Shown in pieces: positions 9,621 through 29,434 of a stretch of DNA of 36,767 nucleotides; within the stretch, counting starts at the first letter, position 1; each line of letters begins with the position of its first letter. Source of the DNA: Gammaproteobacteria bacterium. GTDB taxonomy: Bacteria > Pseudomonadota > Gammaproteobacteria > UBA6429 > Thiohalophilaceae. The DNA lies in contig JAFLJQ010000235.1 in assembly GCA_022712915.1 (NCBI GenBank), positions 1-36,767 of the forward strand, in the 5' to 3' direction. The position numbers and the translations under genes are program-made. The notes under the pieces are model-generated. The model did no database searches. It was not told the origin of the DNA and saw only the letters and a list, made by a program, of their open reading frames with translations.

Positions 9621-9932
9621 ATGAGTATGCAAATACAGATAGAAGAAAAACTTGCTAAAGAGCTGAAAGCTCAACATCTTGAAGTGGTAAATGAAAGCAA
9701 TAACCACAACGTCCCGCCCGGTTCCGAATCGCACTTTAAAATCGTAGTGGTAGCACCTGATTTCGAGGGTAAAAGTTTGATCAATCGGCATCGCATGATT
9801 AACAGTATTCTGGCGGATGAACTCAAGAACCAGATCCATGCCCTGGCCATGCATACCTATACTGAAGAAGAATGGAACAAGGCCAGTGGTGATGCCCCTA
9901 TGTCTCCTCCTTGCATGGGTGGTGGTAAATAG
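9621..9932 (+). CDS. bolA: BolA-family protein
   Basis: A 103-residue BolA protein. BolA proteins partner monothiol glutaredoxins in Fe-S cluster handling, and some act as stress-induced regulators. The core is clear: [15 protein letters not shown], the helix [13 protein letters not shown] and the conserved H-A-L-A-M-H-T-Y-T end strand. The SHF and RHR segments hold the histidines used for cluster or metal binding. A short tail with PPCMGGGK adds a cysteine. ATG 9621 has GAGGT seven bases upstream. It ends in a hairpin terminator and converges with glcE. Whether it is the BolA1 or IbaG subtype I cannot settle. Confidence 0.88.
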
Positions 9933-9960
9933 TGACTGTTTTAATACCGATAATTGATTA

Positions 9961-9987
9961 ATGTCTGTGTATCAGACATGGATTTTT
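9961..9987 (+). terminator. Intrinsic terminator of bolA
   Basis: ATGTCTG (9961-9967), loop TGTAT, CAGACAT (9973-9979), then GA and TTTTT (9983-9987). It lies 28 bases after the bolA stop. Confidence 0.65.
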
Positions 9988-10060
9988 AATACTGGCGGGT
10001 AACATAAAGCGGAACAGGCGTATTGATTTAAGTAGTCTACTGGTTTTGGTTTGCGTGGTC

Positions 10061-11125
10061 TTAAAAATCAGAGTACATGCGAGTCGGGTTGAGAATGCAG
10101 TTTGGATCAAAGGCCAGTTTGAGGTTGAGATGTAACTGTTTTAACTTGCCTGACAGGGGCTGAAAATATTCTTCATTGTTATCGCCATGGCGAAACAGGG
10201 TGGCATGGCCCTGAGCGGTGATGGCCTGTTGCCGAATGGTTTCGGCATCCATGTCTGATTTGATCCAGCGTTGTGCTCCACCCCAATCGATAAATGTTTC
10301 CCCGTTTATGTTCAGCTTCGTAGTATTGGCAGGAACAGATAGACGCCATAAAGGTTGTTCGCTATCAAAGAAGGCTAATTGTTGTTCGCGTAGTTTGTAC
10401 CAGAACTGTTCACCGTCATTAAGTTCATCACCTTGTATACTTTGCATGGCCACTTTGATGGCCTGCTTAGTACCCGATAGACGGGTGTAAAGATATTGCC
10501 CGTCATGGCAACTGGCGGATAAGGGCAGGGGCTTGCGACCATAGTTGAGCATTTTTGCCAGAGCCTGGTCGGCGGGTAGTTTGTTGATAAGGGTGGTTTC
10601 AAATGCTGGACGGGGTAACACCTTTAAGGAGACTTCAAGCAATATCCCCAAAGTGCCGAGTGAACCGGTAAGTAGACGTGAAAGATCATAACCGGCAACA
10701 TTCTTCATGACTTCACCACCGAAATGGAGCTGCTCACCTTTGCCATTGATCAGTTTTGTGCCGAGTACAAAGTCTCTTGCTGCACCGGCATAGGGGCGTC
10801 TTGGGCCTGATAGGCCACTCGCAATGGCTCCACCAAGGGTGGCCCTGTCTCCAAAGTGAGGTGGTTCAAAGGCCAGCATTTGATTGTGTTCGGCCAAGGC
10901 GTTTTCAATGAGCTTTAACGGTGTACCTGCTGCCGCTGTGATCACCAGTTCAGTCGGTTCATAGTGGATAATGCCACCGTGATGACGGACATCAAGCAGT
11001 TGGCCATTGATTTGTCGGCCATAAAAATTCTTGCTGTTACCTCCATGGATCTTTAAGGGCGTGCGTGTTTGATAGGCATGTAGAACAATATCCTGAATAC
11101 GCTGGTTTTGTGCTTCTACAGACAT
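10061..11125 (-). CDS. glcE: Glycolate oxidase FAD-binding subunit GlcE
   Basis: Second flavin-type subunit of the membrane-associated glycolate oxidase GlcDEF, which turns glycolate into glyoxylate and passes electrons to the quinone pool. At 354 residues it has the usual GlcE length and the FAD_binding_4 (PCMH) fold only: KIHGGNSKNF near residue 25, T-A-A-A-G-T-P-L near 63 and FGDRATLGGAIASGLSGPRR at 91-110. It lacks the long substrate-binding C-terminal half of GlcD. It is the last gene of a three-gene minus-strand run, seven bases after the kinase gene. The Fe-S subunit GlcF, normally adjacent, is not in the window; the next gene downstream is bolA on the other strand. Confidence 0.93.
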   Translation of the reverse strand: MSVEAQNQRIQDIVLHAYQTRTPLKIHGGNSKNFYGRQINGQLLDVRHHGGIIHYEPTELVITAAAGTPLKLIENALAEHNQMLAFEPPHFGDRATLGGAIASGLSGPRRPYAGAARDFVLGTKLINGKGEQLHFGGEVMKNVAGYDLSRLLTGSLGTLGILLEVSLKVLPRPAFETTLINKLPADQALAKMLNYGRKPLPLSASCHDGQYLYTRLSGTKQAIKVAMQSIQGDELNDGEQFWYKLREQQLAFFDSEQPLWRLSVPANTTKLNINGETFIDWGGAQRWIKSDMDAETIRQQAITAQGHATLFRHGDNNEEYFQPLSGKLKQLHLNLKLAFDPNCILNPTRMYSDF

Positions 11126-11132
11126 GTCTTGA

Positions 11133-12695
11133 TTAGGTTTTGTTTATAGTGGAGGCCAGTTGTCTGATATCAATGTCTTGTTCGGTATCCAGTTGAATTA
11201 GATTAGCCATTAAATTATCGCTGACTGCTTGCCAGTTTTGTAGCTGTTGTTCGAGTACATTGACCGTGGCATCAGAATAATCCTCTTTACGTTGATGAAT
11301 TCGATTGCGTAGTGTCTCGGGTCTGGCTTTAAACTCAAGTATATGAAAAGGGAGAGTCATTTGTTCAGCAATTTTCTGAAATAAAGTAATTTGTTGTGGG
11401 TCAATAAAGGTGGCATCGACAATGACCTTGTAACCTGCCGTTAGTAATTCTTCCGCCAGTTCTGCTAGAGATTGATAGACGTGTTGTGTCATGTCCTTGC
11501 TGTATAAATCAGGACTGTTGTTGTGTAACCTTTTACGTTCAACATCAGAGCGAATTCTGATTGCGCCTATCATTTCCAATAATGGTTGCGTGTATGTTGT
11601 CTTGCCTGTTCCAGACACGCCGCGGGTAAGTATTAATATCGGTGTAGATGCTTGGGTGTAGTTTTCCGTTAGTTCAATATAGGAAAGAAAATCTTTAAGT
11701 GTCTTATCTTGTTCCTGTTGAGTGAGGTGGGTTTGGTCTTGGCTTTGATCCTGGAATTGACTAAGCCGAATGGCATCGACCTTGACACGTACCAGGGCAC
11801 GGTAGACTTTATAAAATGTGAGTAGCTTTAGCCCCTCGTAATCACCTGTTAGTTCCAGGTAACGATTCAGTAAGCGCCATGCAAATGGACTTTGCTGACG
11901 ATCTTCCAGATCCATGATCAAAAAGGCGATATCGTTAATGGTATCGATCCAGCGCAAGTCTGGATTGAATTCTAGACAATCGAACAATACTACTTTTCCA
12001 TCCAGCAAGGCCATGTTACGTAAATGCATATCACCATGACCTTCTCGAATAAAACCATTTGATTTACGTTGTCGGATAATCTCTTGCAAGGGAGTGAATT
12101 GTTTTTTACACCAGTTTTCCAGTGTCTTTAAACGAGGCTCATATTGATTATGTTTGAGACTATGGTGAATATGTTTAAAATTTTCTATAACCGGTTGGTA
12201 GACCTGTTCGGTCAGGCCATAAATGGAATGACTTGCGGCACGTTCGGTTGTTTGATGAAAGTTAGCAACGGTCTCGGCCAGACTGTCTATATGGTCAGTT
12301 GTGAGTTGTTTGTTTGCCAGAACTTCATCCAGTTGAGCTGACTGGGGGAATTGTTTCATTTTTACGGCATATTCAATGGCCGGGCCATGGCCATTCAAGG
12401 TCGGCTTTTCAGGGCTACCCGTGAGGCAAACAAGCTCCAGATAAAGTTCAGGTGCAAGACGCCGGTTAAGCCGCAATTCTTCTTCACAAAAATATTTGCG
12501 TAATGCCAGGGTGGAGAAATCCAGGAAACCCATGTTGACGGGTTTTTTAAATTTATAGGCATATTGACCTGTTAATAAAATCCAGGAGATATGGGTTTGT
12601 AAAACGGTGAAATGGTCAATCGCGTGTGTATAGAGTGATGGCTGTTGCAGGTTTTGCAGCAAAATTTCCTGCGCTTGCAGTGATGTCTTGTCCAT
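11133..12695 (-). CDS. APH-like kinase / P-loop ATPase fusion protein
   Basis: A 520-residue two-domain protein. Residues 1 to about 340 form an aminoglycoside phosphotransferase-like kinase with the catalytic-loop motif HGDMHLRN (220-227) and a metal-site strand VVLFDCLEFN. Residues about 350-520 are an AAA_33/zeta-like P-loop domain with Walker A GVSGTGKTT (359-367) and an R-S-D-V-E-R-K-R segment. The fusion is a known conserved architecture often annotated as a bifunctional aminoglycoside phosphotransferase/ATP-binding protein; its substrate is not known and antibiotic resistance should not be assumed. It starts two bases after the glcD stop and ends seven bases before glcE, so the three are almost surely co-transcribed. 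A small-molecule kinase role linked to glycolate is possible but unproven. Confidence 0.85.
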   Translation of the reverse strand: MDKTSLQAQEILLQNLQQPSLYTHAIDHFTVLQTHISWILLTGQYAYKFKKPVNMGFLDFSTLALRKYFCEEELRLNRRLAPELYLELVCLTGSPEKPTLNGHGPAIEYAVKMKQFPQSAQLDEVLANKQLTTDHIDSLAETVANFHQTTERAASHSIYGLTEQVYQPVIENFKHIHHSLKHNQYEPRLKTLENWCKKQFTPLQEIIRQRKSNGFIREGHGDMHLRNMALLDGKVVLFDCLEFNPDLRWIDTINDIAFLIMDLEDRQQSPFAWRLLNRYLELTGDYEGLKLLTFYKVYRALVRVKVDAIRLSQFQDQSQDQTHLTQQEQDKTLKDFLSYIELTENYTQASTPILILTRGVSGTGKTTYTQPLLEMIGAIRIRSDVERKRLHNNSPDLYSKDMTQHVYQSLAELAEELLTAGYKVIVDATFIDPQQITLFQKIAEQMTLPFHILEFKARPETLRNRIHQRKEDYSDATVNVLEQQLQNWQAVSDNLMANLIQLDTEQDIDIRQLASTINKT

Positions 12696-12697
12696 AT

Positions 12698-14179
12698 TTA
12701 GAAACGTTCCAGCTCGGGGTGAGGGAGTTGGCCGTGATGTACATGCATGGCTCCCAGTTCGGCACAGCGATGCAGGGTGGGTACAGCCTTGCCGGGATTG
12801 AGCAGACTCTCGGGATCAAAGGCGTGCTTGACAGCATGAAATTGTTTTAACTCCAGTGCCTGGAACTGTACACACATTTGATCTATCTTTTCGATGCCCA
12901 CGCCGTGTTCACCGCTAATGGTGCCGCCGACCTCAATGCAAAGCTCCAGTATTTTGCCGCCAAACTCTTCAGTGCGCTCAAGTTCTCCTGGCTTATTGGC
13001 ATCGTACAAAATGAGTGGATGCAGATTGCCGTCACCGGCATGAAACACATTGGCGACCGGTAAATTATATTCCTTTGACCATTCATTAATGCGTTTTAAA
13101 ACGGTGGCCAGTTGCTTGCGGGGGATAGTCCCGTCCATGCAGTAATAATCTGGTGAGAGTCTACCGATAGCGGGGAAGGCAGCCTTGCGACCCTTCCACA
13201 TCAACTCTCTTTCGGTATTGTCTTTTGCGGTGCGTAGTTCAGTGGCACCGCTTTTTTGTAACAGGGAATGAACGATCAGGATCTGTTCCGAAACTTCTTC
13301 GTTTATTCCATCCAGTTCACAGAGCAAAATAGCCTCGGCATCTTCTGGATAACCGGCGTGAACAAAGGCCTCGGCCGCCTGAATCGCATATCGGTCCATC
13401 ATTTCCAGACCCGCCGGGATAATGCCGTGGGCAATGATGTCAGCCACGGCATTGCCCGCCTTTTCAATATCATCAAATGCAGCCAGTATGACTTGTGCGC
13501 GTTCTGGTAAGGGCAGGAGCTTCACGGTGACTTCGACAATAATACCCAGCAGGCCTTCCGAACCCGTGAGCAGGGCGAGCAGATCATAACCCGGTGAATC
13601 GAGTCCACCGCCACCTATGGTCACGCGTTCCCCATCCATGGTAATAATGATTAATTGCTGGATATTGTGCACGGTTAAACCGTATTTAAGACAATGCACG
13701 CCACCTGCATTTTCTGCGACGTTACCGCCGATGGTGCAGGCAATCTGTGACGAAGGATCGGGAGCATAATAAAGACCATGTTGCTTTACCGCCTCACTGA
13801 TGGCGAGATTACGCACGCCAGGCTGGACACGGGCGGTACGGGCAACAGGATCGAGCTCAATGATTTGTTTAAATTTTGCCAGACTCAATAACAGGCTTCC
13901 ATCCTGTGGCAAGGCTCCTCCCGATAAGCCCGTACCGGCACCTCGGGCAATCACGGGGATCTGCTCTGCATGACAAAGTCGCATGATGGCCTGTACCTGT
14001 TCAATCGTATCCGGCAGGGCGACAACCCAGGGCAGTTCACGGTAGGCAGAAAGGCCATCACATTCGTAGGGACGGGTGTCTTCACTGTCGAATAACACTG
14101 ATGCGCGTGGCAATATGCGTCGCAGTTGCCTGACGAACGGTGATCGGCGTTTATTGACCTTGTGTATTTTTGCTACCAT
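12698..14179 (-). CDS. glcD: Glycolate oxidase catalytic subunit GlcD
   Basis: FAD-linked subunit that oxidises glycolate (or D-lactate in close paralogues). The 493 residues contain the PCMH FAD-binding motifs VIARGAGTGLSGGALP (76-91) and D-P-S-S-Q-I-A-C-T-I-G-G-N-V-A-E-N-A-G-G, and the C-terminal FAD_oxidase_C domain with the metal/substrate motif HAGDGNLHP and SGEHGVGIEK. It is the first gene of the minus-strand operon, with the kinase fusion and glcE directly after it, which favours glycolate oxidase over D-lactate dehydrogenase. The Shine-Dalgarno before ATG 14179 is weak. A 141-bp MITE-like element sits about 40 bases upstream and may separate or alter its promoter region. Confidence 0.93.
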   Translation of the reverse strand: MVAKIHKVNKRRSPFVRQLRRILPRASVLFDSEDTRPYECDGLSAYRELPWVVALPDTIEQVQAIMRLCHAEQIPVIARGAGTGLSGGALPQDGSLLLSLAKFKQIIELDPVARTARVQPGVRNLAISEAVKQHGLYYAPDPSSQIACTIGGNVAENAGGVHCLKYGLTVHNIQQLIIITMDGERVTIGGGGLDSPGYDLLALLTGSEGLLGIIVEVTVKLLPLPERAQVILAAFDDIEKAGNAVADIIAHGIIPAGLEMMDRYAIQAAEAFVHAGYPEDAEAILLCELDGINEEVSEQILIVHSLLQKSGATELRTAKDNTERELMWKGRKAAFPAIGRLSPDYYCMDGTIPRKQLATVLKRINEWSKEYNLPVANVFHAGDGNLHPLILYDANKPGELERTEEFGGKILELCIEVGGTISGEHGVGIEKIDQMCVQFQALELKQFHAVKHAFDPESLLNPGKAVPTLHRCAELGAMHVHHGQLPHPELERF

Positions 14180-14219
14180 GTTATTTATTCTACATCAGGC
14201 TAAACAGATTAAAACTATA

Positions 14220-14360
14220 GGGTGCCTCTAATAATTTGATCAAGACGATGATGGCAAGGCACAAAGGGGCGAAAAAACGCAGTTTACACGCAGTAAATGA
14301 GCATTTTGAGCCCGTTTGTAACGCCGCTAGCACGGCTTTAGCGAATTATTAGAAGTGCCC
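14220..14360. mobile_element. 141-bp MITE-like element with 4-bp flanking repeats
   Basis: The ends GGGTGCCTCTAATAATTTG and CGAATTATTAGAAGTGCCC are imperfect inverted repeats of each other (16 of 19). The element is flanked on both sides by TATA (14216-14219 and 14361-14364), which looks like a target-site duplication. It codes for nothing. The interior (CAAGGCA, CGCAGTTT, GTAAATGAGC, TTTTGAGC, AACGCC) is shared with 32772-33039. It fills the gap between divergent glcD and the small membrane gene and ends just before the latter's ribosome-binding site. Confidence 0.75.
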
Positions 14361-14381
14361 TATATAACGAAGGAACATGAC

Positions 14382-14765
14382 ATGCGTAATCTTCTATTAG
14401 CTCTGGGTGCTGGAGTTGTTACCTGTTTATTTATCTATGTGCTGCCCTATGGTCGGGCATTGGATATGGTTGGTTTGTTACTGGGTGTGGTTGCGGCCAT
14501 CTACATTGGTTTTGCTATTGTTGATGGTCGGAATAATATTATCTATCTGGAATGCTCTGTTGCGGCGGTATTTATTTTGCTTGCCCTGTTGGGTATGTGG
14601 GGCAAACCGGTGTGGTTGGTGGTGGGGTTTTTTGCTCACGGGGCGTGGTGTTTGTTGCATTATCCCGGCAAGATGGGCGCAAGGGTGCGTAAGGGGTATC
14701 CATCGGCCTGTGTCGTATACGACTGGATTATTGGTTTTTATCTGGTTTATTGGTTAGGTTGGTAG
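14382..14765 (+). CDS. Small integral membrane protein of unknown function
   Basis: A 127-residue protein with four probable membrane helices: about residues 2-20, 24-43, 48-68 and 72-85, plus a final WIIGFYLVYWL hydrophobic end. No catalytic motif is visible apart from a conserved-looking FFAHGAWCLLHYP segment. I do not recognise a named family. ATG 14382 has AAGGA (14370-14374) seven bases upstream; the longer reading frame from 14355 would begin inside the MITE-like element and is unlikely. It is followed ten bases later by hslR and so may be co-transcribed with it. Confidence 0.7.
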   Translation: MRNLLLALGAGVVTCLFIYVLPYGRALDMVGLLLGVVAAIYIGFAIVDGRNNIIYLECSVAAVFILLALLGMWGKPVWLVVGFFAHGAWCLLHYPGKMGARVRKGYPSACVVYDWIIGFYLVYWLGW

Positions 14766-14775
14766 TATCGAGTAT

Positions 14776-15159
14776 ATGGAAAAGTTACGTATTGATAAAT
14801 GGTTGTGGGCGGCCCGTTTTTATAAAACACGCGTCCTGGCAAATGAGGCGGTGGGCGGAGGCCATGTGCATTTGAATGGCTCACGGATCAAACCGTCTCG
14901 TGAAATTAAGGTCGGTGACCGGTTGGAGGTTAACAAATCACCCTATACCTTTAAGATCACCATAGTGGCATTGGCGACAAAGCGCGGCTCCGCCACTCTG
15001 GCACAAGGCCTTTATGAGGAGAGTGAGGATAGTCGTCAACGGCGTGAGGTCGTACAGGAACAACGCCGTATCGAAAAGGCTGCGAATCCTGGCCCAGCTA
15101 AACGGCCAAACAAGCGAGATCTGCGGCAGATTATCCGCTTTGTTAATAAGAATCAGTAG
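14776..15159 (+). CDS. hslR: Ribosome-associated heat-shock protein Hsp15
   Basis: Hsp15 binds free 50S subunits that carry a stalled nascent chain, through its S4 RNA-binding domain, and helps recycle them after heat stress. The S4 domain is plain: RIDKWLWAARFYKTR at residues 5-19, then GGHVHLNGSRIKPSREIKVG, followed by a basic C-terminal region rich in R and K that also belongs to the family. Its 127 residues match the usual length. It lies between the small membrane protein (10 bases) and a Nudix gene (8 bases). I see no heat-shock promoter directly upstream. Confidence 0.93.
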   Translation: MEKLRIDKWLWAARFYKTRVLANEAVGGGHVHLNGSRIKPSREIKVGDRLEVNKSPYTFKITIVALATKRGSATLAQGLYEESEDSRQRREVVQEQRRIEKAANPGPAKRPNKRDLRQIIRFVNKNQ

Positions 15160-28678: not shown

Positions 28679-29434
28679 GTGAAGCCCTTAAATAAAATAC
28701 CCTTGTTCGTGATGTTTGTTTTTTGCCTGTTGCTTGTTCAGCAGAGTAGTGTTGCGGGTGGAAAAACCCATTGGGGTTATACAGGCCATGAAGGGCCGGC
28801 ACACTGGGGTGGGCTTGTTTCGGATTACCGTGTTTGTAAATCGGGTCGTGAGCAGTCGCCTGTTAACATCAATGGAAGTACTACGGGTCGTAGTCAGTCA
28901 ATTATTTTTGGTTATTCAACCAGGCCCAATAACATTGTTAATAATGGACATACGATTCAGGTTAATATGAAAAAAGGGTCTCGTATTACGGTGAATGGCA
29001 AAATATATCAACTGCGCCAGTTTCATTTTCACTCACCATCTGAACATCAAGTGAATGGGCAACATGCTGCCATGGTCATTCACTTTGTGCATCAGGCGGA
29101 TGATGGTCAATTGGGTGTGGTGGGTTTGTTGTTGGATAAAGGCAAACCCAATAAAATAATCGAGCAGCTTTGGCAATATATGCCTGAAGATCACGGTGAT
29201 GAAGCACCATTGCCTGCCACGGTGGATATTAAAAGATTATTGCCGCTGAATCGTGCTTTTTATAATTACAGTGGTTCTCTTACCACTCCACCTTGTTCAG
29301 AAGGTGTCAACTGGATGGTGCTTAAAGGGCGAGCCAGTGTGTCACGAGCGCAAATCAGAAAATTCACCAAGCTCTTTCCGCGCTCTATTCGACCGGTACA
29401 ACCCATTAACCATCGGACTATTTATTCCCGATAA
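28679..29434 (+). CDS. Periplasmic alpha-carbonic anhydrase
   Basis: Zinc enzyme that interconverts CO2 and bicarbonate, here exported: residues 1-26 are a signal peptide (hydrophobic core F-V-M-F-V-F-C-L-L-L-V, cut near V-A-G-G). The alpha-class active site is complete: zinc ligands H116, H118 (F-H-F-H-S-P) and H135 (V-I-H-F), the gatekeeping S-L-T-T-P-P-C-S-E-G with Thr near 202-203, and H91 at the proton-shuttle position. C53 and C206 would form the usual disulfide. Length 251 is normal. Start is GTG at 28679 with a modest AAGAG upstream. In the periplasm it would speed CO2/bicarbonate exchange, useful for inorganic carbon uptake or pH control; it converges with the nuclease gene, 19 bases apart. 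Confidence 0.95.
   Translation: MKPLNKIPLFVMFVFCLLLVQQSSVAGGKTHWGYTGHEGPAHWGGLVSDYRVCKSGREQSPVNINGSTTGRSQSIIFGYSTRPNNIVNNGHTIQVNMKKGSRITVNGKIYQLRQFHFHSPSEHQVNGQHAAMVIHFVHQADDGQLGVVGLLLDKGKPNKIIEQLWQYMPEDHGDEAPLPATVDIKRLLPLNRAFYNYSGSLTTPPCSEGVNWMVLKGRASVSRAQIRKFTKLFPRSIRPVQPINHRTIYSR

Follow-up and report, generated by a model that had tools for sequence, protein, structure and literature searches.

The gene for a two-domain kinase that lies between glcD and glcE in a gammaproteobacterium of the family Thiohalophilaceae is best explained as a lineage-specific guest of the glycolate oxidase (glc) operon, retained for its own function. We put the probability of this reading at about 0.68, and the position of the gene between the two glc subunits probably does not reveal the job of its product. 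The reading draws on two observations: elsewhere the kinase is found away from glc genes, and in a sister species the kinase and glcE are intact beside a glcD that has been reduced to a scar. The window analyzed here is the whole stretch of 36,767 nucleotides (contig JAFLJQ010000235.1 of assembly GCA_022712915.1).

The gene is a member of a widespread, uncharacterized family of kinases that combine an APH fold with a P-loop domain. Synteny and trees show that, within the Thiohalophilaceae, it took second place in the native operon of one lineage (glcD-kinase-glcE-glcF). The native operon has since been eroding in the window's genus: the window lost glcF by deletion, and the sister species lost most of glcD. 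The kinase frame has been kept intact throughout, and the gene is presumably co-transcribed with the glc genes and probably translationally coupled to them. Its product probably phosphorylates a small metabolite, with both domains taking part.

The three genes are tightly packed (Table 1). Only 2 bp separate glcD from the kinase gene (12696-12697) and 7 bp separate the kinase gene from glcE (11126-11132). The earlier note had described this packing of an APH/AAA_33 fusion between glcD and glcE, and its coordinates, strand and gaps are exact. GlcE is an equivalog match to its model (512 bits vs. a cut-off of 284). GlcD falls slightly short of two strict equivalog cut-offs, including that of NF008408 (897 bits), as do nearly all of its relatives, and no family fits it better. 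The window encodes GlcD and GlcE in one operon, with the kinase inserted between them.

Table 1. Features of the native glc locus and its flanks in the window.
Feature	Position	Strand	Basis
BolA-like gene, convergent, downstream end of native glc locus	9621..9932	+	named by inspection; position conserved in G018, G017
glcF remnant, most of gene deleted	9933..10060	-	one-frame match to G018 GlcF
glcE, glycolate oxidase FAD-binding subunit, 354 aa	10061..11125	-	NF008439, 512 bits
Two-domain kinase, APH-like + AAA_33 P-loop, 520 aa	11133..12695	-	Pfam matches, conserved catalytic residues, model
glcD, glycolate oxidase FAD subunit, 493 aa, first gene of native glc operon	12698..14179	-	NF008408, 838 bits; TIGR00387, 556 bits
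MITE-like repeat in divergent glcD/DUF6010 intergenic region	14205..14365		repeat search of own genome
DUF6010 membrane protein, divergent, opens conserved flank of native glc locus	14382..14765	+	synteny
Hsp15-like RNA-binding protein, synteny anchor	14776..15159	+	synteny

A conserved flank, a divergent block in the order DUF6010-Hsp15-Nudix-thioredoxin, identifies the native glc locus. On the other side, the BolA-like gene occupies the same place after glcF in the congener G018 and after glcE in the sister species, G017. The MITE-like repeat is ~160 bp long with inverted ends and has 52 matches in its own genome, the best of which are 92-95% identical; it is absent from the shorter glcD/DUF6010 intergenic regions of both congeners. 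The window also encodes an alpha-type carbonic anhydrase (28679-29434, PF00194).

The locus resembles the E. coli-type glcDEF system in that its GlcD and GlcE match curated models; most relatives, like the window's own genome at another site, have a complete glcDEF. It differs in the kinase placed between glcD and glcE and in having only a remnant of glcF, with no intact glcF in the window's operon. In G018, an intact glcF follows glcE, ahead of the convergent BolA-like gene. The window has a 128-bp gap at this place, in which one frame reads TTQTKTSRLLKSIRLFRFMLPASIKN... and the second half of that frame aligns to residues 130-148 of the G018 GlcF (BLOSUM62 score 52, a score reached by 0 of 1000 shuffles). 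The second, complete glcDEF of the window's genome (G000) is found on contig C185 at 48938-52688 (locus L167), with its glcF at 51477-52688 (637 bits). The earlier description of glcF as missing holds in part: no complete glcF adjoins the operon, but a decayed remnant does, and a complete set lies on C185.

The kinase itself consists of an N-terminal APH-like domain (residues ~1-345) followed by a C-terminal AAA_33 P-loop kinase domain (~350-517) in a single frame. It shares its domain order, length and conserved catalytic residues with the proteins annotated as "bifunctional aminoglycoside phosphotransferase/ATP-binding protein" (COG2187 + COG0645), and differs from them in its placement inside glc. 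We take Synechocystis slr0207 and M. tuberculosis Rv2004c to be members of this family. Rv2004c has been treated as an antigen (PMC5483032). In an alignment of 55 relatives, the catalytic residues of both domains are conserved: H220-G-D222, D239, E242 and lysines 48/50/51 are invariant in the N-terminal domain, as are G359, G364, K365 and D384 in the C-terminal domain. The predicted structure is a confident two-domain model (pLDDT 93.2). The domains are fused at 46 of the 80 kinase loci found in a wide genome scan, and some of the others carry them as neighbouring genes, an arrangement that supports joint action of the two domains. A separate AAA_33 gene lies near an APH gene, several upstream, at loci L112, L117, L119, L121, L122, L127, L131, L136 and L144. 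Neither a substrate for the family nor a kinase inside glcDE is described in the literature searched.

How often the kinase sits with glc was surveyed in 40 genomes of the window's family; an order-level survey gave the identical 40. The kinase is present in 30 of them; in six, from four genera of this one family, it is part of the native glc locus or adjoins it. The order glcD-kinase-glcE-glcF is complete in G018 and G026. The window has glcD-kinase-glcE, G025 has glcD-kinase followed by the end of the contig, and G017 and G016 have kinase-glcE. Elsewhere in the family, the flanks read show no glc gene next to the kinase. The earlier note had named, as signs against a shared purpose, a fusion found mostly away from glc and a placement unique to one genome. 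The first is what we see; the second is not, and the packing, being common to other genera, is more than the accident of a single genome.

The DUF6010/Hsp15 flank, in whole or in part, also borders glcDE in genera g4 and g14, where the kinase is lacking. In the GlcE tree, the kinase-linked GlcE of the native locus groups with that of g4 and g14, albeit at a weak fork (80/80), and those from the extra glcDEF sets of G000 and G017 are placed elsewhere, with different relatives. The copy on C185 was acquired separately from the native one. In the kinase tree, the sequences from genera g1, g11 and g12 join in a single clade (100/99), and adding the G016 kinase to this clade is not rejected (p-AU 0.68). 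A single clade of the six glc-linked kinases plus two from g17 is neither shown nor rejected (p-AU 0.19). Identity between the kinases of the three or four glc-linked genera is only 47-67%. A single insertion followed by losses would be the simplest account.

In G017 (locus L147, contig C461, reverse strand ~4230-4085), glcD is a 47-codon in-frame scar that retains its start and the LERF-stop end; the kinase follows almost at once, and both it and glcE are intact. The G017 assembly is a draft that is 75% complete, which limits the certainty of this scar. In G016 (L151), which is 91% complete, a kinase-glcE pair is present and glcD is not found at E 1e-100, possibly being unassembled. No trace of a decayed glcD, glcE or glcF turned up in searches of G016 and g17. 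Compared with G018, the window's kinase and GlcE do not sit on lengthened branches, which argues against general decay. The glcD scar of G017 and the glcF remnant of the window show the native operon eroding gene by gene in the window's genus, with the kinase frame intact in both.

Alternatively, the kinase could serve glycolate metabolism by phosphorylating glycolate, glycerate derived from glyoxylate, a by-product, or a compound that accumulates in photorespiratory glycolate oxidation. Such a role would fit the way the kinase gene is closely and consistently packed between the genes for two subunits of the same enzyme, and the host is probably an autotroph: its genome encodes two RuBisCO large subunits, so glycolate salvage makes sense in it. 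The kinase and glcE also co-occur above chance among 323 genomes sampled across the class, in which the kinase is found in 158, glcE in 168 and both in 110 (odds ratio 4.2, p 6e-10, relatedness not corrected for). However, among the 93 genomes of the sample with listed positions for both genes, the two are close only in the window's genome, the next nearest pair being 147 kb apart, and glc lies nearby at only one of the 80 loci of the genome scan, namely that of G018 (L067). The kinase occurs in genomes without a true GlcE match, such as G022, glc occurs in G006 without the kinase, and 58 of the 168 genomes with glcE lack the kinase. Moreover, the kinase has outlasted the local glcD in G017 and glcF in the window. 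We consider a role in glycolate metabolism unlikely, and this distribution does not support the shared purpose with glycolate oxidation proposed in the earlier note.

Some features nevertheless count against the guest reading. The kinase has been kept between glcD and glcE across three or four genera, for longer than a neutral gene order might survive. After both partial losses of glcD, in G017 and G016, glcE is what remains next to the kinase. The two genes also co-occur above chance in the class.

If the kinase is a guest with its own function, its surroundings elsewhere suggest a role around the SAM/SAH cycle. Its commonest neighbour is the gene for S-adenosylhomocysteine hydrolase (ahcY), found at 17 of ~110 loci in three phyla (Chloroflexota, Gammaproteobacteria and Woesearchaeota), at 15 of them on the same strand and within two genes. 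Dehalococcoidia have the order kinase-ahcY-metK, two genera of the Thiohalophilaceae (g15 and g18) have kinase-ahcY-pcm, and a woesearchaeon has ahcY-kinase; in family f40, ahcY is one gene further off. The kinase lies near ahcY, often together with metK or pcm, at L095-L106, L112, L122, L126, L134, L163, L164, L210 and L211. The gammaproteobacterial ahcY at these loci is a paralogue separate from the main ahcY. The gammaproteobacterial and Chloroflexota kinases are only ~33% identical, which makes a recent shared transfer unlikely. Co-occurrence of the kinase with ahcY was dropped as evidence, as nearly all genomes of the class sample carry ahcY (280 of 323). The ahcY-linked loci are a minority, and the window's own locus is not among them. 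There are other neighbours, named by inspection: in several gammaproteobacterial families, for instance, the kinase lies beside a gene resembling those for penicillin-binding proteins, and in Nitrospirota beside one resembling that for uroporphyrinogen-III synthase. This variety indicates a loose gene context in the family.

Because ahcY is the most recurrent genomic partner, our best single guess, and a tentative one, is that the kinase acts on a SAM/SAH-cycle product (adenosine, another nucleoside or a ribose derivative). A combined explanation, in which a SAM/SAH-cycle kinase (acting, for example, on adenosine released by S-adenosylhomocysteine hydrolase) stays in the glc operon since it is needed when RuBisCO oxygenation is high, seems quite improbable to us.

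The fold of the protein bears on the remaining alternatives. A search of the PDB with the predicted structure returned PSTK, gluconate kinase and polynucleotide kinase (PNK) for the C-terminal domain, and choline kinase, N-acetylhexosamine kinase (NahK) and APH for the N-terminal domain. The window's kinase shares its folds with these enzymes and with ethanolamine kinase, but it is only 9-21% identical to them in fold alignments, no full-length match covers both domains, and the substrate cannot be read from the fold. A sequence search of solved structures found no relative.

Regulation of the oxidase by phosphorylation of a Glc subunit or another protein is very unlikely. Coupled translation across the short gaps could plausibly yield equal stoichiometry, but the close fold relatives of both domains are kinases of small molecules, tRNA and nucleic acids, and glcDEF runs without a linked kinase in most genomes. 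Even less credible is the aminoglycoside resistance implied by the generic annotation. The Pfam APH match (2.4e-5) barely exceeds its cut-off (24.7 vs. 23.2 bits), none of the NCBIfam APH resistance models is matched, no solved relative is found by sequence, and the gene is chromosomal in half of the class. The suspicion in the earlier note that this label misleads is borne out. A zeta-type toxin acting on UDP-GlcNAc is just as improbable, as the Zeta_toxin match (1.5e-6) is far weaker than that to AAA_33 (2e-33), the fold search ranks PSTK, gluconate kinase and PNK first, the domain is fused to a second intact kinase, and the genes on either side are glc subunits, with no epsilon-type antitoxin gene beside the kinase.

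The guest reading of the window's kinase cautions against inferring function from tight packing: a kinase gene separated by only 2-7 bp from the genes on either side can still be a guest confined to one lineage. The remnants of glcD and glcF represent operon erosion caught underway. The kinase family is common, being present in about half of the class sample, and its recurrent ahcY neighbourhood makes the substrate question testable. If true, a role in the SAM/SAH cycle would give a function to a large orphan family that is now labelled as resistance.
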